Of a stretch of 27,611 bases of DNA, positions 3,697 to 23,088 are shown piece by piece. Below the pieces are notes generated by a model, which was given only the letters and a program-made list of their open reading frames with translations, was not told the origin of the DNA and ran no database searches. The translations under genes and the position numbers were made by a program. This DNA comes from a virus. The stretch is from positions 1-27,611 of the IMG/VR virus record IMGVR_UViG_3300010885_056217, one strand, 5' to 3'. The first letter of the stretch is position 1, and each line of letters opens with the position of its first letter.

Positions 3697-4656
3697 TCAC
3701 AATTCAAATAAAGTTTCTTGGATAGGCTTGGGCTCGAATTTAAACCTCTTTAACCACTCTATGATCTCCAAGCCGTTAAGCAGCTTACGGGCCATGTGGT
3801 CGGTTCTAAGCAAGTCGACACTAATTTCATGGAAAGCTGCCCGCTCTTCTATCTTGGCTTTAATATTCTTATCACCATTGTCGTAATGCTTACCTTGGTT
3901 AAACCTGTCCGGGCTCTCTACCGAAATATTTAGAGACACCCAGTTATAGTTTTCGTCTAGTACATCTACCTTACCCATGGCGCCAGAAAAGAGCCAGGCA
4001 GCACTATCTACCGACCACCATGGAACACGGGACATCATTTGTACCCCGGTGGTGGCAAGGCCATGCGTCCGCTTACCTGCCGGAAGTTTGTCATGGACTT
4101 CCTCCGACCAACGGACCCGTGTCCATTCAGGCAAATCATTTCTAGGAGATGCGCAGATATATTCCGCCATGGAGCATATCTCCAGCATGCGGGCTTGGGA
4201 TTCATTTTGGTGGTAAACAGGCACCACTATGTCTCCAAATTCTTTGGAAAGGATGTTAAAGTTAACGTCCGATTCGCGAATTGCGTCTTGGACTTCTTCG
4301 GCAGATGCGGTCTTACCGGGACTTCCCGGAATAACGTCTAGCGAAATGAGAAATACCTTTACCTTGCTTAAGTCAACCAAGGCCATGACTTCGCTATAGA
4401 TCCGGATAAGATCGTCTATCTTAACGAGGTGTCCGGACTTCCAGGCAGTAAAGGCACCGGAGTCCAGCATAAAGTAGCGAACTTGGTTATCTTTTTGGGA
4501 AACCAAGTTCGCCCACCGCTTGGCGTCTCTTACATAGTTGCCGTGGCAGGAGCACAGTCTACACTGGAGCTCCTTTACCAACTTCTCCTCCTCGGCACCG
4601 GCCCTGCCCATGTTGCCAGAGAGGAAGAAGTTTAGGTTGTAATCAGGCAACAGCAT
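3697..4656 (-). CDS. dpdA: DpdA-like DNA guanine transglycosylase (7-deazaguanine insertion)
   Basis: 319 residues from the ATG at 4656; the frame extends upstream to a TTG at 4689, which lacks support. It belongs to the tRNA-guanine transglycosylase-like family used by phages to exchange guanine in DNA for a 7-deazaguanine. Cues are DSGAF (D65; compare DSGGF of TGT), SLDVIPG (about 106-112), PVYHQNE, CASPRND, HGL (about 199) and WWSVDSAAW (about 213-221), whose Asp is a candidate nucleophile. The Zn-binding Cys set of tRNA TGTs is not evident. It sits directly after queF, overlapping by 14 nt, in a complete preQ1 pathway, which strongly supports the role. The C-terminus ends QETLFEL, a QxxLF clamp-binding-like motif, and the next gene is the clamp. 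Confidence 0.88.
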
Positions 4657-5113
4657 TTTTATGCCAAGTTGCTGTTGGCCAGAAAGCAATGCCGCCCCGA
4701 GGGGTAAACTGCCCGATTACCTTAATGTACTCAGGCTGGAGGAGGTCCACCAAGTCATTACACATACGGTTAACGCAAGCTTCATGAAACTCCCCTTGGT
4801 TTCTAAAAGACCCAAGATAGAGTTTCCAAGCCTTAGATTCCACTACCCACTGGTCGGGAATGTATTCCACGATAATGGTTGCAAAATCCGGTTGCCCTGT
4901 TAGGGGGCAGAGGCTGGTAAATTCGGGCGCCGTAATGGTAACGGTTCCGGCACACCCGGAAGGATTGCTTGTCTTGAACGGGTTAGGAAATCGCTCTAGT
5001 ACCGATTTGTCAGCACCCTCCTTGTCGTAAAGAGGTTTGTTAACAGCGGAGTTACCCAGCGCTTTAAGATTTTCGTGAAATTCCATTATGCTTTCTTTCA
5101 AAGTTAACGGCAT
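4643..5113 (-). CDS. queF: NADPH-dependent preQ0 reductase QueF
   Basis: 156 residues. QueF reduces the nitrile of 7-cyano-7-deazaguanine (preQ0) to the aminomethyl of preQ1. It has the T-fold signature [15 protein letters not shown] with nucleophile C69 and acid D76. The NADPH-binding motif ESKAWKLY (92-99) is intact, followed by [10 protein letters not shown] (102-111) and FTPRGGI near the end. The intact ESK motif separates it from QueF-like amidinotransferases that make archaeosine, so preQ1 is the expected product. The length fits the short single-domain (YkvM-type) QueF. The first ATG overlaps the folE stop by 10 nt; an in-frame ATG at 5086 is an alternative start. Confidence 0.93.
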
Positions 5114-5652
5114 AGAGCCAAGAATTCGGAACGGGCTGCGCCCTCTTCCTTAAAACAACCCCGAAGGGCTGAGGTTACTGTGATACTATTCGTATGGTGG
5201 ACACCACGAGAACAGACACACATATGCTTAGCTTTTAAAACTACTCCTACCCCTAGCGGTTGGAGGTGTTCGAACATAGCATCAGCAATCTGGGTGGTAA
5301 TACGCTCTTGTACCTGGAGGCGGGAAGCGTAAAGTTCTACCAATCTATTCATCTTAGACAGACCTAAGATACGTCCGTTGGGAATGTAGGCAATGGAGGC
5401 AGTTCCGAAGAAAGGCGCCATGTGGTGTTCGCAATGGCTATAGAGGTCAATATCCTTAACCACCACCATTTCATTACACCCCTCTGCCCCATCTTCAAAT
5501 GTCTTAAGAATCTCCTTAGGGTCTTGGCCGTAGCCCCTGCACCAATGCTTCCACGCTTTAAGAACCCGTTTGGGGGTTTCCTGTAAGCCTTCCCGGTTCG
5601 GGTCTTCTCCAATGTAAGACAGAAGACCGGTAATTAGTTTTTCGTTATCCAC
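5104..5652 (-). CDS. folE: GTP cyclohydrolase I (FolE)
   Basis: 182 residues, close to the usual length of short bacterial FolE. It opens GTP to 7,8-dihydroneopterin triphosphate, the first step towards 7-deazaguanines. Zinc ligands are visible in YSHCEHHM (C74, H77) and HMCVC (C145), with the family stretch [18 protein letters not shown] and upstream [10 protein letters not shown]. The start is GTG at 5652, with a GCAGGAG ribosome binding site and only one base after the queD stop. In this phage context it feeds QueD rather than folate synthesis. It overlaps queF, so folE, queF and dpdA form one tight unit. Confidence 0.96.
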
Positions 5653-5653
5653 T

Positions 5654-6106
5654 TTAACTCCTGCAATAAGAGGCTGAGTTACTGGGGGTTTCGCGAACCT
5701 CTACCTTAATAATTCGGCAGCGGTCAGCGTAACCATTTTCGGGCATCCAAATTTCATCTATGTACTGGTAAAGCCATTCGGACAGTCCTTCGCAACCAGT
5801 CTTTTCTACCACTGTCATCTTAATAAGATTTTTGCTATGAAGCATCTCGAAAGTTTTAAACTCAGGGTCGTCTTGGGCAACTAGACAAGTATGGTCAAAC
5901 CAGTCGTCTAACTTTGCTTTTAGACTTTTAAGAGACCCAAAGTCCACCACCCAATTACGGGCATCTAAATCATCACTTTCAAATTCAAAGTGGAAGCCTA
6001 AGGCGTAGCCATGAATCTTATTGCAATGCGACTCCGCCCGGTGCTGGCGGTAAGCAACTGCGTACCCTCTTTCAGAGGTATAGGTTTTAGTACTGCGATA
6101 TGGCAT
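5654..6106 (-). CDS. queD: 6-carboxy-tetrahydropterin synthase (QueD family)
   Basis: 150 residues of the 6-pyruvoyl-tetrahydropterin synthase fold. It should turn dihydroneopterin triphosphate into 6-carboxy-tetrahydropterin. Cues are the catalytic Cys in SHCNKIHGY (C28), candidate zinc ligands H22 and H32, the DH pair in WFDHTCLV (D71, H72), and a Glu-bearing C-terminal helix (GCEGLSEWLYQYI). The usual HGH motif reads HGY here (Y34), so one of the three classical zinc His is replaced. The AGGAGGG ribosome binding site supports the ATG at 6106, and the start overlaps the upstream small gene by 20 nt. Family assignment is firm; exact zinc chemistry is uncertain. Confidence 0.9.
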   Translation of the reverse strand: MPYRSTKTYTSERGYAVAYRQHRAESHCNKIHGYALGFHFEFESDDLDARNWVVDFGSLKSLKAKLDDWFDHTCLVAQDDPEFKTFEMLHSKNLIKMTVVEKTGCEGLSEWLYQYIDEIWMPENGYADRCRIIKVEVRETPSNSASYCRS

Positions 6107-6269
6107 TCCAACGCCCTCCTATGTATCTGCCGGTTTGTCCTTTAATGGTCAGGGGCAATGTGGTTCCAAGCTGGTCTAGCCAGAGGGTGGCACCTTTAAA
6201 CGGGCCGTCAACGCATTTGTAGGCGGACTTGCTACGGGCAAGTTCTTTGGTATGGTTTTTCTTTTTCAT
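6087..6269 (-). CDS. Small basic protein between queE and queD, unknown
   Basis: 60 residues with a very basic N-terminus (MKKKNHTKELARSK) and a body that looks like a small beta-barrel: YKCVDGPFKGATLWLD, TLPLTIKGQTGRY, then GGRW. The pattern 'V..GPF.G..LWL....TLP...G..G.Y' occurs in small phage proteins of unknown role. It shares one base with the queE stop (TAATG) and overlaps queD by 20 nt, so it is locked into the modification operon. It could be a small nucleic-acid-binding or accessory factor; this is inferred from charge and location only. Confidence 0.75.
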   Translation of the reverse strand: MKKKNHTKELARSKSAYKCVDGPFKGATLWLDQLGTTLPLTIKGQTGRYIGGRWNAISQY

Positions 6270-6958
6270 TAGTCGACTCCTAGCAGTTTGTGTAATTGAA
6301 TTCCCATACGATAACCGTGGGTTAGACAGAAGTTGGTTGCAAACTTTAAGTTAGCTTCGTTCTTTGCATCGTCATGGTCGTCTCGGGGCTGAACCCAGAT
6401 AGTTGTTCCTTCTTTAGGACGGGCCAACTTAACCGCCTTGGCTCCCGGTTGGGTCTGGGTAACTATCTCTCCTTCATCATCCACATCCCCTGCCCCCACC
6501 ACGTATTTGAAGTGTTTGCAACGGTTTAGGATCTCTTTATGTACTTTGCCCGTTTTGGGGGAGCATACCAAGGTAACATCACATTCTTCTAGTCCGGGTA
6601 CCCAGACAGTCCCGGCGGTTTCGATTTGGACTCTAAACTGCCTACGGGTAAGTTCTTTGATTAAAGGCACTAGGTTTTGGAGCATGGGCTCCCCGCCGGT
6701 AATGACAACTAATTTCGTTCTTGCCATTGCCCGGACTTGGACCTCGTCTACTAAATCGTCTAGCATATGAAACCGGGCATTGGATTCAAAATCCGTGTCA
6801 CACCAAGTACACCGCAGGTTACAACCTGCTAGGCGAATAAATACCGAGGGCATGCCGTTATACGGGCCTTCCCCTTGGATGGTGTAAAAGACGTCTACTA
6901 TGTTTAAGTTTCCGGTAGGCGCCAGGTGTTGTGAAATAACGATGTTTTTACCGAACAT
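6269..6958 (-). CDS. queE: 7-carboxy-7-deazaguanine synthase QueE (radical SAM)
   Basis: 229 residues. It is a radical SAM enzyme that contracts 6-carboxy-tetrahydropterin to 7-carboxy-7-deazaguanine. The N-terminus has VFYTIQGEGPYNGMPSVFIR, followed by the cluster motif CNLRCTWC (C46, C50, C53; the CxxxCxxC spacing of radical SAM enzymes) and DTDFES. VITGGEPMLQ (about 84-93) is the GGE SAM-binding motif. CSPKTGKVH and WVQP further on are also typical of QueE. It overlaps queC by 11 nt and meets the following small gene at TAATG. Length and motifs are normal, so it is expected to be active. Confidence 0.96.
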   Translation of the reverse strand: MFGKNIVISQHLAPTGNLNIVDVFYTIQGEGPYNGMPSVFIRLAGCNLRCTWCDTDFESNARFHMLDDLVDEVQVRAMARTKLVVITGGEPMLQNLVPLIKELTRRQFRVQIETAGTVWVPGLEECDVTLVCSPKTGKVHKEILNRCKHFKYVVGAGDVDDEGEIVTQTQPGAKAVKLARPKEGTTIWVQPRDDHDDAKNEANLKFATNFCLTHGYRMGIQLHKLLGVD

Positions 6959-7733
6959 AATTTAACGCTTTAATTAGCGCCTTGGTTGTATAGTTAACCG
7001 ATTTAGGCAAGTCCATTAAACCTTCTTTCCATGCTCTAAGCACCAAGGGATCTGGTAAACCTGCTTTCTCAAACCCGTCCGCCCGAAGCACATTAGCGTG
7101 GTTCATATCGGTAGGGGGATACTTGCCGTCGTAGGACGTATGTGACCAGCCTAACGCCTCCCAGCAACCGGAAATGTCAAATGCCCAAAGAACCGTTTCC
7201 GACTTGCTCATATTCATAAGCGGGGTGTGGATGGTAATGGGGGTGGTTCCCCGATGGTCATGGCCCAGAGCGGTATTGATATAGCGCTCAGTTGCCTGGA
7301 TAAACACTGCCCGGCAATCGTCGTAGTTGGCATTGTCCATTTGGCAAACGCCTGTCACAATATTGGGAATGCCCATTGCCTCCGCCCGGTTAGCTGCTAT
7401 GGTTAAGAATAGGGCGTTGCGCATGGGTACAAAAGTAAGCTCCCTGCGGTCACCAATGGTCTCATCCATCTGCTCCGCGTTTTCGTATTTCTCCAACGGG
7501 GCGTTGCTTGTAAGAGGGGATTTGGAGATAAGGCAGTTAGGTACCTTAACTACTTCGTAGTGCTTTACCCCTGCCATTCGGGCAACTTTAACGGCAGCCT
7601 CTACCTCAATTATGTGACGCTGTCCGTAATCAAAAGTGATCGCGCTCACCTCGTCAAACTTTTGCTTAGCCCAGAAGAGGCAGGTTGTAGAGTCCTGCCC
7701 ACCGCTTAGCACTACTAGTGCTTTGGTTTTCAT
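6948..7733 (-). CDS. queC: 7-cyano-7-deazaguanine (preQ0) synthase QueC
   Basis: 261 residues. It is an ATP-dependent enzyme converting 7-carboxy-7-deazaguanine to preQ0. The PP-loop LSGGQDSTTC (about 9-18) and FDYGQRHIIEVEAA are clear, with FVPMRNALFLTIAANRAE in the middle and LRADGFEKAGLPDPLV at the end. In the usual zinc site a CxxC-type Cys cluster is expected; here the segment reads GCWEALGWSHTSYDGKYPP, with only one Cys, so the metal site is altered or absent. An AAAGGAC ribosome binding site precedes the ATG, which overlaps the upstream stop as ATGA. Confidence 0.93.
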   Translation of the reverse strand: MKTKALVVLSGGQDSTTCLFWAKQKFDEVSAITFDYGQRHIIEVEAAVKVARMAGVKHYEVVKVPNCLISKSPLTSNAPLEKYENAEQMDETIGDRRELTFVPMRNALFLTIAANRAEAMGIPNIVTGVCQMDNANYDDCRAVFIQATERYINTALGHDHRGTTPITIHTPLMNMSKSETVLWAFDISGCWEALGWSHTSYDGKYPPTDMNHANVLRADGFEKAGLPDPLVLRAWKEGLMDLPKSVNYTTKALIKALNYVR

Positions 7734-11930: not shown

Positions 11931-12887
11931 TTATTGGGTAAGGAGGTCTAGGGCGCGCTCTTTAAAGCGGCCTGCCTGCCCAAACCAGGCGTCCATGAGA
12001 CGGGCGGACTGGTTACGACCTTTCAGGTGGTCAATATACTCTGTCACCGCATTAAGGGCTCCCCATGCAGTTCCTGAAATTGCGTCTTGCCCGGTGCCCA
12101 ACTGGCCACCATCAAAAAGGCTAACAATCTTTTTATAGGCAGCGGACTTACGGATCTGGTCTCCGTCAATCTCGCCCTTCTCTGGCTGCATTAACGTAAT
12201 AAGAAACTTGTCCATAGCGGACTGGTTAAAGGACAACCCGGCAAGCTTGGTTGCTTTCTGCGTAAACGCCTCAAACTCGCTAAGGCTAATCTCTAGCCCT
12301 GCCCGGACCTCCTCTGCCCGAAAGTCGGTGGAGTGGGGAATGCGCACTTGGCGGTTGCCATTTTCACCCAAAGCAATTTGGATAGTATTACGGCAAACTA
12401 CCCGCGTTGCTACCAGCTTTGCAATTGTCGGGGTAGACATATCGTAGGAGGTGGAAAGCATAAGGTAGGGGGCAATCTTGTCGTCTTTAACCAAGTAATC
12501 GTCACCCATACGGGCAAGTGCCCAGATTACTTTGCCGCCAGAGAGGGAGCCTGCGGTCTCCATCTGCGCATCGGTCTTGCCAGTAACTTCGCGAAAAAAA
12601 TCTAGAATGGTTTCGGGCTGGACCGTGCGGTAACCGCTAGAGACGACAGACAGAGGGGCATGGGTGTCGCTGCGAAACAGAACCTTACGGTTGTTAAAGC
12701 TCTTAATAACGTTGTCGACGGAAAACTCCACCGTGGACTCTTTAACTGCCCAGTCAAGACCGGCCGCCTTCGTCCACTCGTCGATGCTTGCGTCTGGGGT
12801 AAGTTGCTGTCCCAGACCGTGCCAAGGGAGGTCGCCCACAAATGCAATTGCCGGGACGCCAGTAGTCATATCGATTTCATGTGCCAT
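11931..12887 (-). CDS. DUF932 family phage/plasmid protein
   Basis: 318 residues. The start MAHEIDMTTGVPAIAFVGDLPWHGLGQQL is diagnostic of DUF932 (TIGR03299-like) proteins, which occur widely in phages and plasmids. Other family-like parts are VLFRSDTHAPLSVVSSGYRTVQPETILDFF and the C-terminal DHLKGRNQSARLMDAWFGQAG. The molecular function is unknown; the family is often expressed early beside recombination genes. The ATG has an AGAGGT site eight bases upstream, and a near-consensus promoter at 12917-12944 lies just before it, so it is probably the first gene of its own transcript leading into the recombination genes. Confidence 0.9.
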   Translation of the reverse strand: MAHEIDMTTGVPAIAFVGDLPWHGLGQQLTPDASIDEWTKAAGLDWAVKESTVEFSVDNVIKSFNNRKVLFRSDTHAPLSVVSSGYRTVQPETILDFFREVTGKTDAQMETAGSLSGGKVIWALARMGDDYLVKDDKIAPYLMLSTSYDMSTPTIAKLVATRVVCRNTIQIALGENGNRQVRIPHSTDFRAEEVRAGLEISLSEFEAFTQKATKLAGLSFNQSAMDKFLITLMQPEKGEIDGDQIRKSAAYKKIVSLFDGGQLGTGQDAISGTAWGALNAVTEYIDHLKGRNQSARLMDAWFGQAGRFKERALDLLTQ

Positions 12888-12949: not shown

Positions 12950-13336
12950 TTACATACCTTTTGGTGGAATAAGTTCCATCGCGGGGGTTCCGGGCTTGGT
13001 GGTCAACACCTTGTCAACTGCTACCCGGATAGCATCGTCCAACTTCTTATAGTCGGCCACCGAAAGTTCGTATTTGGTTTTAATAAGTGTCGGGGGAGCT
13101 TTCATCTTTTTCAGATCTTTAAGCAACTCCGCTACCTTGGTTTGGTCTAGCGTCCGGGTATAGGGGACGGTTGCTTTTAGCACCCACCCGTCTTGGAGGT
13201 CGAGCGCATTGGCGCCCTCATCCGTTAGGGGAAAGCCTTCGGCAAAGAGTTCTTTGCGCAGCTTCATTTCTTGCTCCTTAATACGGGCAAGTTCCAGAGT
13301 GGCTAGGCGCCACTGTTCTAATTTAGCATAGTCCAT
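12950..13336 (-). CDS. Helical phage protein, unknown; downstream of the hammerhead
   Basis: 128 residues from the ATG at 13336. It starts MDYAKLEQWRLATLELARIKEQEMKLRKELF, then FPLTDEGANALDLQDGWVLKATVPYTRTLDQTKV and a helical second half. Small phage proteins of this layout (long N-terminal helix, 'EGTN....L..G..LK', 'R.lD') occur beside recombination genes; the function is unknown. An AAAGGA site seven bases upstream supports this start. The frame stays open to 13504, but that part runs antisense-like through a hammerhead ribozyme and the upstream gene, so I reject the longer version. Its 27-nt leader begins at the predicted ribozyme cleavage point. Confidence 0.8.
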   Translation of the reverse strand: MDYAKLEQWRLATLELARIKEQEMKLRKELFAEGFPLTDEGANALDLQDGWVLKATVPYTRTLDQTKVAELLKDLKKMKAPPTLIKTKYELSVADYKKLDDAIRVAVDKVLTTKPGTPAMELIPPKGM

Positions 13337-13359
13337 TGGGTAATCCTTTAAGTTAGTTT

Positions 13360-13412
13360 CCAAGACGCACCTAAGTGCGTTTCGGCCGATACCACTCGGC
13401 CTCATCAGTTGG
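13360..13412 (-). ncRNA. Type I hammerhead self-cleaving ribozyme
   Basis: On the minus strand all core elements occur in order. Stem I 5' arm CCAA (13412-13409) is followed by CUGAUGA (13408-13402). Stem II is GGCCGA, loop GUGGUA, UCGGCC (13401-13384), 6 perfect pairs. Then come GAA and A15.1 (13383-13380). Stem III is CGCAC, loop UUAG, GUGCG (13379-13366), closed by the A-U pair with 13365. C17 is at 13364, and the stem I 3' arm UUGG is at 13363-13360. The cleavage triplet is GUC, with the predicted cut between 13364 and 13363. Both ends leave through stem I, which makes it type I. It fills the gap between two small early genes. The match was made by eye; no covariance search was run. Confidence 0.93.
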
Positions 13413-13419
13413 GATCGGT

Positions 13420-13608
13420 TTACCCTTTCCTGTAGTGAACCCGGACATAACGGGCCATTGCGCGAAGCATGACAGGCTTGGGGATGTTGTACTTTGCGGC
13501 CCAAGCGCGCGCTATCGTTGGCAGGGCATCGGCGCCAATGTGGGGCAAAATATGGTGCTGGGCATGGATGATGCGTTTAGCATCGCGGGCGTTTAGATTC
13601 GACTGCAT
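13420..13608 (-). CDS. Small basic protein upstream of the hammerhead, unknown
   Basis: 62 residues, very basic and His-rich: MQSNLNARDAKRIIHAQHHILPHIGADALPTIARAW, then a helical MLRAMARYVRVHYRKG end. I do not recognise a family; the layout resembles small helix-turn-helix-like DNA-binding proteins. AAAGG precedes the ATG at 13608 by six bases. Its stop lies 7 bases before the first paired base of the ribozyme, so cleavage would leave a structured 3' end on the message carrying this gene. Confidence 0.7.
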   Translation of the reverse strand: MQSNLNARDAKRIIHAQHHILPHIGADALPTIARAWAAKYNIPKPVMLRAMARYVRVHYRKG

Positions 13609-13767: not shown

Positions 13768-14121
13768 TTACTTTTTGACGCACATTTCGTAATGGGCGCC
13801 GTCTGCGGTGTTATACTTAATCCCCGCCTTCATACAGGCAGCCAAGATCTCTTTGCGGCTGGTGACACCAGCGGACAGGAGGTCGGAAATAATTACCTTG
13901 GCTGCCTGCCAAGGCTTAACGGCGCCTACCACTTTGGCAGCCTTTACCGCCTTGGTAGGGACGGGTTGGCGGTAAGCCATCTCCGCCATCAACTCCGTTA
14001 CGCGTTTTTCTGCGGTCACCCGATCGCGAAACTTCTTAACCGGCTTGACTGAATGCTGGTTATAGAAAGCGACCAGTTGGAGGCCAGTGGACAGGCGAAC
14101 GTTGATAGTTGGTTGGGACAT
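13768..14121 (-). CDS. Probable DNA-binding phage protein, first gene of leftward operon
   Basis: 117 residues. The N-terminal part LVAFYNQHSVKPVKKFRDRVTAEKRV resembles a short motif widespread in phage and bacterial proteins (LV..YN....KPVK.F..R..AE.RV). After an Ala/Lys-rich linker the C-terminal half (VIISDLLSAGVTSRKEILAACMKAGIKYNTADGAHYE) looks like a winged-helix DNA-binding domain. An AGGAG site lies seven bases before the ATG. As the first gene after the divergent promoter region it is a reasonable candidate for an early regulator; this is an inference from position and fold cues. Confidence 0.75.
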   Translation of the reverse strand: MSQPTINVRLSTGLQLVAFYNQHSVKPVKKFRDRVTAEKRVTELMAEMAYRQPVPTKAVKAAKVVGAVKPWQAAKVIISDLLSAGVTSRKEILAACMKAGIKYNTADGAHYEMCVKK

Positions 14122-14164
14122 TTAAGAACTCCTAAGTTTGTGTTGCTGGAGCCCCAATTATGGA

Positions 14165-14192
14165 CTTATACCAGTATAGTCTTTTAGGGCAA
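14165..14192 (-). promoter_or_regulatory. Leftward early promoter candidate, proximal
   Basis: Minus strand TTGCCC (14192-14187), 16-bp spacer, TATAAG (14170-14165) with an extended TGG just before it. The predicted start is near 14158, about 37 bases upstream of the ATG at 14121. The -10 overlaps the palindrome TATACTGGTATA, which could be an operator. Confidence 0.5.
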
Positions 14193-14216
14193 ACCCTACC
14201 TTTTGTTATATAAATT

Positions 14217-14245
14217 TTTATACCAAAGTGGAACCCGATTGGCAG
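14217..14245 (-). promoter_or_regulatory. Leftward early promoter candidate, distal
   Basis: Minus strand CTGCCA (14245-14240; 4 of 6 to consensus), 17-bp spacer, TATAAA (14222-14217) with an extended TGG. It is a second copy of the TGGTATAA element about 52 bp upstream of the proximal one. Both lie in the 213-bp gap between the divergent operons. Confidence 0.4.
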
Positions 14246-14266
14246 AACCTATCTATACTAACTAGG

Positions 14267-14295
14267 TAGGCATCCTGCCCACCCTTACCTACAAT
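14267..14295 (+). promoter_or_regulatory. Rightward promoter candidate for primase-helicase
   Basis: Plus strand TAGGCA (14267-14272; 4 of 6), 17-bp spacer, TACAAT (14290-14295; 5 of 6). The predicted start is near 14302, giving a leader of about 33 bases. An imperfect inverted repeat GTAGGCA/TGCCCAC sits on the -35. The ribosome binding site of the following gene is weak (GAGA-rich). Confidence 0.35.
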
Positions 14296-14334
14296 AGATG
14301 TCTTGGTTTACATAGAGAGAAAGAGACTACTGCA

Positions 14335-19888: not shown

Positions 19889-20717
19889 CCCCCTGTCCGG
19901 CCTCGGTGCACTCAGGGCCATCCTTGCTCGGGAAGCGCCAGCCCAGGCAGAGTCCATTCTCCAGGCTTTGAATAGAACCGCCCGTACCGGCAACGAAACA
20001 AGTGTAGTAGGCTCTAGCCTTACCTCTAACCCCAACTTTCTAAGCACCCTTACCGAAGGCACAGCTCACTCCGTTATTCCCAATGCGGCAGACAGAAGGC
20101 GGGCGCTCTTTAGTGGGGAGCCCATAGCGGATTTCCATACCCATCCAGAGGCAATACCCTTCTCCGTCCGTCCTAGCCAGGCAGATATTGTAACATGGCG
20201 GAATAGCGTACCCGACCCACTCTTTAGCCGTACGGTATCGTCTTCTCCGGAGATGCGCGTCATGATAGCCACTCCGCCTGTTAAGGGTGATGTAGGTGAG
20301 AGGGCTAAGACGGCGAGCATGTTCTTTGGAACGGACCGCCCGCGGACAGTCTTTAACCCCAACGACTTCAACAACGCCCGTTACGAACTCCAGCGCGGGT
20401 TGTCTAAGGGCAAGTTAGGTGACTACATGTCCGACCCGAATATCCGGGACGCAGTAGAGAACTACGGGGTAGATATGGCGAACATGGTGGGGGAGATGTC
20501 CCCGCTTGCCCTTATGCGCCACTACGACGTTAACCGCGGCCTCGGGCGCTCTGAAATCAACCTCGGCGGGGTATCAGAAGTTCCGGGAGGTTGGTTAACC
20601 GACAATGACTTGTTTGAATTCTTTACCCCCGGAATGCTAGACCTGCTTAAAAGCAAGAAACTTGCCACTGGCGGGTTGGTAGAGCCTGCCAAGAAAGGAT
20701 GTAGCTGTGGACACTAA
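19881..20717 (+). CDS. JAMM/JAB-like metalloprotease-fold protein in the virion module
   Basis: 278 residues. ADFHTHPEAIPFSVRPSQAD (83-102) carries the HxHP...SxxD signature (H86, H88, S99, D102) of JAB/JAMM zinc proteases; E39 in GNETSVVG is a candidate catalytic Glu. The gap from the second His to Ser is 10 rather than the common 7, as in DUF4329-like relatives. The rest is not recognised. It ends with LATGGLVEPAKKGCSCGH, a Gly-Leu-Val element plus a small Cys-rich tail. It lies between terL and the PcfJ-domain protein, where virion-carried or head-processing proteins are encoded. A role in head maturation or an injected effector is inference. Confidence 0.6.
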   Translation: MPNPLSGLGALRAILAREAPAQAESILQALNRTARTGNETSVVGSSLTSNPNFLSTLTEGTAHSVIPNAADRRRALFSGEPIADFHTHPEAIPFSVRPSQADIVTWRNSVPDPLFSRTVSSSPEMRVMIATPPVKGDVGERAKTASMFFGTDRPRTVFNPNDFNNARYELQRGLSKGKLGDYMSDPNIRDAVENYGVDMANMVGEMSPLALMRHYDVNRGLGRSEINLGGVSEVPGGWLTDNDLFEFFTPGMLDLLKSKKLATGGLVEPAKKGCSCGH

Positions 20718-23088
20718 GACTGCTGCCGATATCCAACGCGCCCAGAGCGAGTATTTCCGCTCACCGCTAGCTGCACTTAACCAACGCTTAAACGCAGGTA
20801 TTCCCACATCGCGCAAATCCGTCATCGGCGCCAAGATGGTAGAGCGTCCGGAGACGAGCCCGTTAGAAGCCTTGTCGCCCAAACTTGCCGGGTTGCTGGA
20901 AGGTGCCTCTGGGTTTGGCTACTTTGGGGGCAGCCCGTCAGACGTATCCCCTTCGGGAGGCGGGAGCGTCTTGGACCCTGCCTACATGAAGCGTAAAGCG
21001 GAAATGCAGGAAGGGGCAGAGTATGGCTACCCCATTGGGACAGCGCTTGCTTTGCCCTTCGGGGGCAAGCAGCTGGGCCAAGCTGCAGGTGCATTGGGCA
21101 ACCTTGCAAAGTCCGAAGCTGGATATAAGCTGGCTCAGAAAGCGCTGGATTCCCCGATGCTTCTTGGAGCCGCTAGCCCAATGAACGTCATCAAGAATAA
21201 AGGCGGCAACTGGTTAACAGGTGACATCCCTGCAACTTTAAAACCTCTTCGCAGAACCCCTGACTGGATGAGTGGGGAGATGATTAACGAAGCTTCTGGT
21301 GATTGGGGATTGTGGGATAAGATTGTTGCAGAAAACGGTCACCGCGATCCCCATGGTTGGATGCAAAAGAACAGGCCCGACGTTTACGCAAAGATGCTTG
21401 GTGAAGAAAGCACAGCCCTTAACCAATGGATCGATAAAAAGCTTGCCAAGTACGTCCAGAACGAGATGGGGACGCCCGAAGACCCATTGCGCGCACTAGC
21501 GGAGCGGGGCATTAGCCACCAACCTCTTTATGAAGGAATGTTAGGCGGACCGGCTTCTCGCAATGACAGGATGGAGGCGGGCTTTCCAAGGGAGGGGCTT
21601 GCCCAGAGTCCGTTAGCCCAGCAATGGGAGGCGATAGCAGACAATGCTATTAGATCAGTGACCGCTAATAGCCGCATCAGGCAAGGTGAAATGCCTAACT
21701 CTTTTAGAACAGCTCACCTGGATTTAGAAAAAAACCCGTGGTTAAGAGACCTTCCTCCAAATACCCCTACCTACGATCTTAGCTCAGCCTTTGACAACGC
21801 CCAGTTCGACCACTTGGTGGATGAATTGCATAATGTTATTCGCGAAGGCTCGGACTTGCCGCAAGCCCTCCGCTGGACGCCTTCAGACCTGTCTAAAGTC
21901 ACCGTTCCCCAAGCGGTGGAACGTTTGGCTGCAGTAAACAAATACCGGCAAGAGGAAGAGGCAGTTGCTAACCAAGAGAAGGCGAATAACTCCGCCACTA
22001 TTCTTCACAAAGAATATCCGGGCCAACCCTTTAAGTGGGTAGAGTTTAAGAAACCCGAGGTGACAGAGCTCCCGCCTGGTTACTTGATTTCAGAACTTCC
22101 TAACAAGCCCGGATGGTTTGCTGTTATGGGTAAAAACGGGCGCTCTACTGGCGGGGTTGGAAAGACTCCGGAAGAGGCTTTTAAGAATCATGATTTTGGA
22201 AAAAATATTCTCCAAGACGCCCTTGACTATGAGGGTTCAACCATGGGCCACTGTGTCGGGGGTTATTGCCCTGAGGTAGAATCGGGTAAGCACCGAATCT
22301 TCTCCCTGCGTGATGAGTCGGGCATGCCCCATGCGACAATTGAAACTATAAAACAAGATTTCCACCCCATCGGTTACAGTTGGAAAGGGGGACAGCAAAC
22401 GCGGGATTCCTTTCCAGAAAATTTTACATACACATTTGGACTAGACAAAAAGCTACCACCGGACCAGCACGAAGCTGTTTACAATCGGGCAAAAGAACTT
22501 TATGATAAAAAGATAGAAGGGATGGATCCTGCTAACACATCCATTTTGCCTTTTGACATAGCAAGGATGGACGCCTTCCAACAAGCAGCAACTGAGGTAA
22601 TAGGCCCTTCTCCTGATTTTATTAATCAAATTAAAGGGTCGGGCAAAAAAGACCGGCGCCAAGACTTACGCCTTGGTACCGATACAAAACCTGGACCAGA
22701 CGATCACCTTTTGCCCTATATCCAAGACTTTGTTAAAAGCGGGACATGGAGTGGGGTAGATGATTTACATAACGCAGGATTGTTTGACACCTTTGACAAA
22801 AATGAAATGCTAAAGCTCCTCCAGCGCGTTTCACCAGAACGGGATATTGAGCAAGGGGTTGCTAATTTTTATAACGCCCACTCCCAGCTTCCAGATCGGC
22901 CTCGCTTTATGACAAGCCGAGAGGTAGAAAATATGCTTGCCCCGCCTGCGGAAGGTTTAGCAAGGGGCGGGTTAGTCTACAATCCCGCCAAGGTAGACGA
23001 ACTTGTTGCCCGGCATTACGGGACGGAGTACGATCCGGCTAAAGTAGACGCAATAGTCAACTCCCTAAAAGAGGAAATGTATGGCTGA
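20707..23088 (+). CDS. Large virion-module protein with PcfJ-like domain
   Basis: 793 residues, GTG start at 20707 with an AAAGGA site. The first third is Gly/Pro/Ser-rich and poorly structured. Around 513-545, MGHCVGGY ... RIFSLRDESGMPHATIE, is the hallmark of PcfJ-like domains (named from the conjugative plasmid pCF10 gene). These occur in phage and plasmid proteins of unknown mechanism. The C-terminus has ARGGLVYNPAKVDELVARHYGTEYDPAKVDAIVNS, in which NPAKVDELV and DPAKVDAIV form a short internal repeat. It overlaps the JAMM-like gene by 11 nt and the portal gene by 8 nt. A large protein here may be an internal/ejected virion protein, but this is inferred from place and size. Confidence 0.65.
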   Translation: MDTKTAADIQRAQSEYFRSPLAALNQRLNAGIPTSRKSVIGAKMVERPETSPLEALSPKLAGLLEGASGFGYFGGSPSDVSPSGGGSVLDPAYMKRKAEMQEGAEYGYPIGTALALPFGGKQLGQAAGALGNLAKSEAGYKLAQKALDSPMLLGAASPMNVIKNKGGNWLTGDIPATLKPLRRTPDWMSGEMINEASGDWGLWDKIVAENGHRDPHGWMQKNRPDVYAKMLGEESTALNQWIDKKLAKYVQNEMGTPEDPLRALAERGISHQPLYEGMLGGPASRNDRMEAGFPREGLAQSPLAQQWEAIADNAIRSVTANSRIRQGEMPNSFRTAHLDLEKNPWLRDLPPNTPTYDLSSAFDNAQFDHLVDELHNVIREGSDLPQALRWTPSDLSKVTVPQAVERLAAVNKYRQEEEAVANQEKANNSATILHKEYPGQPFKWVEFKKPEVTELPPGYLISELPNKPGWFAVMGKNGRSTGGVGKTPEEAFKNHDFGKNILQDALDYEGSTMGHCVGGYCPEVESGKHRIFSLRDESGMPHATIETIKQDFHPIGYSWKGGQQTRDSFPENFTYTFGLDKKLPPDQHEAVYNRAKELYDKKIEGMDPANTSILPFDIARMDAFQQAATEVIGPSPDFINQIKGSGKKDRRQDLRLGTDTKPGPDDHLLPYIQDFVKSGTWSGVDDLHNAGLFDTFDKNEMLKLLQRVSPERDIEQGVANFYNAHSQLPDRPRFMTSREVENMLAPPAEGLARGGLVYNPAKVDELVARHYGTEYDPAKVDAIVNSLKEEMYG

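Follow-up and report, generated by a model that had tools for sequence, protein, structure and literature searches.

Does the short intergenic gap in front of a phage replication operon hold a working ribozyme, and what might such an RNA do for the genes behind it? The window, i.e., the whole stretch of 27,611 nucleotides analysed here, raises this question on its minus strand, where, according to the initial annotation, a phage bearing 7-deazaguanine genes has a full type I hammerhead in one of its early intergenic gaps.

Anatomy of the ribozyme

The neighbouring gene calls confirm this setting, and a check of the sequence located each element that had been named: the CCAA/UUGG stem I, stems II and III of 6 bp each, the A-U closing pair, and the GUC triplet, with the cut at 13364/13363 lying 27 nt before the ATG at 13336. 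The motif was scored with a structural scanner, with the Rfam model RF00163 (Hammerhead_1), and with R1, a covariance model built from ten such RNAs, from which the relatives L002 and L013 were excluded because a mixed alignment (A1) had misregistered their extra U. The features of the region are as follows.

13768..14121, minus strand: 117-aa gene, the first leader gene after the divergent junction with the primase
about 13752-13629, minus strand: 40-aa leader ORF, read from the sequence
13420..13608, minus strand: 62-aa ORF, its stop about 11 nt before the ribozyme core
13349..13423, minus strand: type I hammerhead ribozyme with flanks; RF00163 24.7 bits, scanner 4/6/6 bp, R1 86 bits (a score that is not independent, the window sequence being itself a member of the R1 model)
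13409..13412, minus strand: stem I 5' strand CCAA, pairing with 13360-13363 and covarying in relatives
13402..13408, minus strand: core CUGAUGA (C3-A9), invariant in alignment A2
13384..13401, minus strand: stem II, 6 bp (GGCCGA 13401-13396 with UCGGCC 13389-13384; covariation), loop GUGGUA
13391..13394, minus strand: UGGU of loop II, which may form a pseudoknot with ACUA (13354-13357), as loop/flank pairing classes across phage hammerheads suggest
13381..13383, minus strand: core GAA (G12-A14), from the sequence
13365..13380, minus strand: stem III, 6 bp (ACGCAC 13380-13375 with GUGCGU 13370-13365; covariation), loop UUAG
13364, minus strand: C17 of the GUC triplet, predicted cleavage 3' of this base (13364^13363), the position taken from the family
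13354..13363, minus strand: stem I 3' strand UUGG (13363-13360) and flank AAACUA, which holds the pseudoknot partner
13344..13349, minus strand: AAAGGA, Shine-Dalgarno-like, predicted unpaired, in the leader remaining after the cut
12950..13336, minus strand: DUF7173 (phrog_2480), with which the conserved replication operon begins
11931..12887, minus strand: DUF932 (phrog_1221), the family found directly after related hammerheads in other phages

On the minus strand, the region reads ...GGGTAAACCGATCCCAA CTGATGA GGCCGA GTGGTA TCGGCC GAA ACGCAC TTAG GTGCGT C^ up to the cut, followed by TTGGAAACTAACTTAAAGGATTACCCA and the ATG. The core (CUGANGA, GAAA, and NUH) is complete, together with the A15.1-U16.1 pair, which is part of stem III, and the topology is that of type I, with loops closing stems II and III and stem I open. 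Stem I is short, with 4 bp and a possible pseudoknot of 3-4 bp that includes one G-U; when the 81-nt RNA is folded on its own by minimum free energy, without pseudoknots, stems II and III form and stem I is absent. Hammerhead cleavage yields a 2',3'-cyclic phosphate and a 5'-OH. Judged by its sequence, the window ribozyme is predicted to be self-cleaving, and the leader left after the cut is predicted to contain an unstructured 24-nt stretch bearing AAAGGA. Loop II can pair with the 3' flank of stem I, which agrees with the stem I/II pseudoknot demonstrated by mutation and rescue (Perreault et al., 2011; PMC3088659). In the survey described below, GGU loops were accompanied by ACC/ACU flanks in 13 of 15 cases and GGC loops by GCC/GCU flanks in 19 of 27, counts that are weakened by the relatedness of the sequences and by within-class shuffles, which often pair too. 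The window motif is almost certainly a genuine hammerhead.

Chance level and conservation

The initial claim that such a motif is very unlikely by chance holds. In 604 Mb of first-order Markov sequence with the composition of the window, scanned for all three circular forms, no match of equal quality was found and 404 appeared under much looser criteria; the number expected in the window by chance is 0.018 for loose and below 5e-5 for equal-quality matches. The outcome with Rfam is divided. It had been proposed to run RF00163 over the locus and to regard the lack of a covariance hit above threshold as a refutation. With a 181-nt stretch as a query, RF00163 does match (24.7 bits, E=3.6e-4 for all families), and the alignment spans the whole model length and agrees in all core positions and in topology; the score lies below the gathering score of 34, and a scan of the whole window at the gathering threshold reports no hammerhead. 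Taken literally at the Rfam cut-off, this result would count against the motif, yet it is outweighed because the ribozyme is conserved and covarying in relatives. The gathering score is a threshold of database curation rather than a biological property. The expectation that standard annotation overlooks the motif is borne out more widely, as none of 54 scanner-counted hammerheads in 126 kb of phage DNA was reported at the gathering cut-offs. No second hammerhead was found in the 27.6-kb window, where the next R1 score is 9.4 bits and the record of which may be a fragment; the clustering of several hammerheads, frequent in phages and not obligatory, is absent from this stretch with its one copy.

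A nucleotide search with the locus found no match in named phages. In a near relative, L001 (DUF7173 98% identical), the same ribozyme is present; one G-C pair of stem II has become G-U there, and stem I has 5 bp after an indel. A more distant one, L002 (DUF7173 73% identical), has a hammerhead directly before the same gene, GCUAA-CUGACGA-U-GGCAGGC.GGGA.GCCUGCC-GAAA-CGCAC.UCCG.GUGCG-UC-UUAGC, in which stems I and II differ in sequence from those of the window and retain their pairing. R1, built without them, gives 47 bits (E=1e-11) for L002 and 33 bits for L013. In the ten seed sequences, 96% of the cells are paired and 31 are double-changed, compared with 10.3 in shuffles, and sliding the register of the seed alignment lowers the pairing to at most 43%. 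For 64 distinct matches aligned to the model, pairing amounts to 98.7% and covariation to 0.62 versus 0.12, in an alignment that was fitted to the model.

The L002 ribozyme has an additional U after A9, which could lower its activity. An extra nucleotide between A9 and stem II, usually U, recurs (L002 5907-5982; L013 273-346), and the same insertion with all else intact was also seen in L038, L057, L087, L151, and L164; as far as the sequences tell, it is a core variant repeatedly retained in phages. A viroid hammerhead reportedly has its extra nucleotide at the same place as the U of L002. Such a nucleotide in a viroid hammerhead core is named in the title of de la Pena and Flores (2001; cited in PMC6155905).

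The gene upstream of the ribozyme is not retained in the same way. In L002 it differs from that of the window, being a homologue of the 117-aa gene. In L148 (4190-4225), a homologue of the 62-aa leader ORF (84% identical) is followed by a plain hairpin in the hammerhead's stead, and a linkage between the hammerhead and the upstream 62-aa gene was rejected on this ground. Hammerheads were also sought at distant DUF7173/DUF932 homologues of isolated phages, and none was found in those of Variovorax, Sulfitobacter, Paracoccus, Pseudomonas, Vibrio, Stenotrophomonas, Acidovorax, Xanthomonas, Sinorhizobium, Acinetobacter, and others. The hammerhead is thus not essential to DUF7173/DUF932, since homologues in other phages go without one.

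Placement before early phage genes

The ribozyme fills most of the 83-nt gap from the stop of the 62-aa ORF (13420) to the ATG (13336), in which no sigma-70-like promoter was found. The leader ORFs (117, 40, and 62 aa) do not belong to recognisable families, and for the 62-aa ORF a family search gave no match. After DUF932, the same strand encodes a Sak4-like ATPase, an SSB-like protein, a Cas4-type exonuclease, and a helicase, and further along QueC, QueE, QueD, FolE, QueF, a queuine-transglycosylase-like protein (phrog_887), a clamp, and a DNA polymerase; the 7-deazaguanine set from QueC to the transglycosylase-like protein occupies window positions 3697-7733 on the minus strand and suggests DNA modification. 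Between DUF7173 and DUF932 (12944-12917, minus strand) there is a hairpin, TGACTGCC-TTCG-GGCAGTCG, followed by TTATAATTT, which can be read in two ways, as terminator-like or as an 11/12 sigma-70 match (TTGACT-16-TATAAT). In the virion-gene region, a 793-aa ORF (20707-23088, plus strand) has no PHROG match. In three of four isolated annotated phages with DUF7173 homologues, this gene opens its strand behind a divergent primase, in two of them with a short primase-strand ORF in between; in the fourth, MazG comes first. From this position of DUF7173 we infer that the hammerhead of the window sits where variable leader genes give way to the conserved operon.

The link to the second conserved gene was obtained from a search with RNA features only (the ribozyme core and the GUGGUA loop class), which gave 19 stretches. 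Two stop at or just past the ribozyme, and in 15 of the 17 usable contigs the next gene is DUF932. One of the others is the window's near-identical relative, with DUF7173 and then DUF932; the other, L151, has neither gene and carries an array of seven type I motifs. Where measured, the distance from the cut to the DUF932 start is 48-51 nt. Hammerheads also lie 44 nt before DUF932 in L013, whose protein is 30-32% identical, and 39 nt before it in L114, which has another loop class and a protein 41% identical. Thirteen clustered DUF932 proteins have a median pairwise identity of 88% and form three groups below 70% identity; the 15 are mostly close relatives, and with the lineage of the window about four independent lineages can be counted. 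A pattern search in one genome per bacterial or archaeal species gave a single match, in a Rhizobium MAG contig. A tentative proposal, somewhat less likely than not, is that this hammerhead lineage has long held a fixed place in one phage gene module. In divergent phages it would then generate the 5' end of the message for DUF932 (or DUF7173-DUF932), and the ribozyme cut, not a promoter, would bound the variable leader against the conserved replication operon.

Rarity, as implied by the initial annotation, is not supported. Hammerheads between phage or prophage genes, often several between successive genes, were already reported in 2011 (PMC3088659), and a generic type I pattern found at least 119 stretches in IMG/VR, with at least 211 distinct type I motifs in all gathered sequence. 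Most survey motifs have small genes of their own strand on either side, and the cut falls about 29 nt ahead of the following start. A start led by a ribosome binding site follows within 60 nt of the cut in 116 of 184 hammerheads with enough sequence; the same holds for 213 of 1840 random points on that strand and, on the opposite strand, for 4 of 177. Narrowed to 18-40 nt, these counts become 86/184, 76/1840, and 3/177, respectively. For 177 motifs with a complete downstream gene, assigned by a simple rule that searches 8-75 nt from the cut only, the start is a median of 29 nt away and the genes have a median length of 92 aa; the set comprises 144 unrelated clusters. The PHROG names found after hammerheads include anti-restriction, MazG, N4-like RNA polymerase, nucleoside deoxyribosyltransferase, DNA ligase, and superinfection immunity, with no virion family among the 25 of 49 that were listed.

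Arrays of 3-7 hammerheads per stretch are common in the survey. In the first set of stretches with a structured type I motif (n=107), 40 have at least two copies and 22 at least three, and all 42 multi-copy stretches carry every hammerhead on one strand. The additional copies outside the search pattern comprise 71 of type I and 4 of type III, in a search that had selected type I first. Arrays of 4-7 type I copies on one strand were seen in L114, L039, L087, L151, L067, L054, L120, L135, and L123, mostly with each copy directly before a different small gene; none of those scanned reaches the Rfam gathering score. Type III candidates with a long stem I or III are located in L063 (8955-9031), L105 (7324-7398), L097 (4239-4310), and L115 (4321-4392), and L063 and L105 have type I copies on the same strand too. 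Type III matches in L005-L007 were rejected, as they look like chance matches in coding sequence. To judge by the survey, phage DNA commonly carries this motif, and the Rfam default cut-off does not reveal it; phage transcript maps and annotations therefore probably miss many mRNA ends made by ribozymes.

Proposed role and known hammerheads

The function of phage hammerheads was still described as open in a 2017 review (PMC6155905). Given the observed motif, placement, conservation, covariation, and same-strand spacing, the role of the window ribozyme is probably the constitutive, cis-cleaving processing of early polycistronic mRNA. Transcription would probably start in the divergent junction near 14130-14330, pass the three small leader ORFs, and enter the replication operon. 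The nascent RNA would then fold and cut itself at 13364^13363. If the end chemistry follows the hammerhead mechanism, the upstream mRNA would terminate in the stem II and III hairpins and a 2',3'-cyclic phosphate, and the downstream mRNA would begin, 27 nt ahead of the DUF7173 start, with a 5'-OH and a short unstructured leader with the ribosome binding site. For the phage, the benefit would likely consist in uncoupling the stability and amount of the leader message from those of the replication genes, and likely also in giving the latter a defined 5' end that needs no promoter. Together with its relatives, the window ribozyme thereby yields a prediction that can be tested, namely that a 5'-OH end is produced at a short, narrowly spread distance before early-gene starts.

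There is a small chance that the ribozyme chiefly makes the 3' end of the upstream leader message, which the hairpins and the cyclic phosphate would protect like a terminator, the downstream effect being incidental. The type I topology indeed leaves both hairpins on the upstream product, the L148 homologue of the 62-aa ORF precedes a plain hairpin instead, and upstream stop codons in the survey often touch stem I; nevertheless, the cut position is tied to the downstream start, and the window and L002 keep the downstream gene (DUF7173/DUF932) while the upstream gene differs. Slighter still is the chance of a regulated switch similar to glmS, in which a protein, small molecule, or ion modulates cleavage and the ribozyme controls the replication operon. 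Its location directly before the first conserved operon gene would suit such control, and regulation was suggested as an option by Perreault et al. (PMC3088659). However, the motif occupies most of the gap with no added aptamer-like domain, the ribosome binding site lies outside the ribozyme fold in a cut leader that is unstructured, and the sequences of stem III and the loops vary freely among relatives. That the motif is a decayed, inactive relic or a chance match is very improbable: the unmet Rfam gathering score would fit this, but clear phage arrays likewise fall below the cut-off, fewer than 5e-5 such matches are expected by chance, and the window, L001, and L002 show an intact core with covarying stems. 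Least probable of all is that an element able to move or propagate itself (retrozyme-like, or giving rise to RNA circles via paired ribozymes) lies between the genes by happenstance, for although eukaryotic retrozyme and viroid hammerheads act in circular RNA and many phage stretches hold several copies, the window has a single one, copies within a stretch differ in sequence and lie mostly at gene starts with similar spacing, and circular or spliced products sought by Perreault et al. were not found (PMC3088659).

As a processing element, the window ribozyme belongs to the class of phage hammerheads known since 2011, and multi-hammerhead loci and the idea of processing are already published. 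What is newer is the recurrent pairing with DUF932 (DUF7173), the spacing, and the fact that Rfam overlooks all 54 tested hammerheads; a limited search of open-access papers found nothing on phage hammerheads with DUF932/DUF7173, on the spacing to start codons, or on the Rfam cut-off problem.

The closest known example is that of phage PaP3 (L175), used as a positive control, in which R1 finds a hammerhead at 45 bits (E=2.5e-11). From the phage and the position, this match is probably the sequence tested by Perreault et al., 2011 (PMC3088659 Fig. S6), where PaP3 is among the active core variants. It lies between orf67 and orf66 and, like that of the window, is of type I and on the strand of the flanking small early genes. 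The 5' halves are nearly identical (CCCAACUGAUGAGGCC), the leaders after the cut are similar (CUUGG-GAAA..AACU..AAGGA), and 28 nt separate the PaP3 cut from an in-frame GTG with a ribosome site, compared with 27 nt to the ATG in the window. This GTG (44012-44010, minus strand) is 12 codons before the annotated ORF.66 start and is probably the true start of that gene. Unlike in the window, stem III of PaP3 is much longer and imperfect, and the flanking genes are unrelated. The authors list PaP3 and Bcep176 as core variants and report the latter as slow (PMC3088659); the strict scanner found neither of them, and R1 did not find the Bcep176 variant.

Clustered hammerheads are known from prophages (in A. 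tumefaciens the ardA triplet, and others in A. caulinodans and C. scindens), and these tandem ribozymes cleave in vitro, the A. tumefaciens set also in E. coli (PMC3088659). They resemble the window ribozyme in lying between successive phage genes and were proposed to cut long transcripts into gene-length mRNAs; however, they number several per locus, whereas the window has one, of type I, at the head of a conserved replication operon. For the early helicase operon of haloviruses HF1/HF2, the mapped 5' end lies at most 3 nt from the hammerhead cut (PMC3088659). HHphage of HF1/HF2 differs from the window ribozyme in its archaeal virus, its variant core with an insertion, and its activity at high salt, but, like the latter, it is placed just upstream of an early gene, in HF1/HF2 13 nt before the helicase that opens a polycistronic operon.
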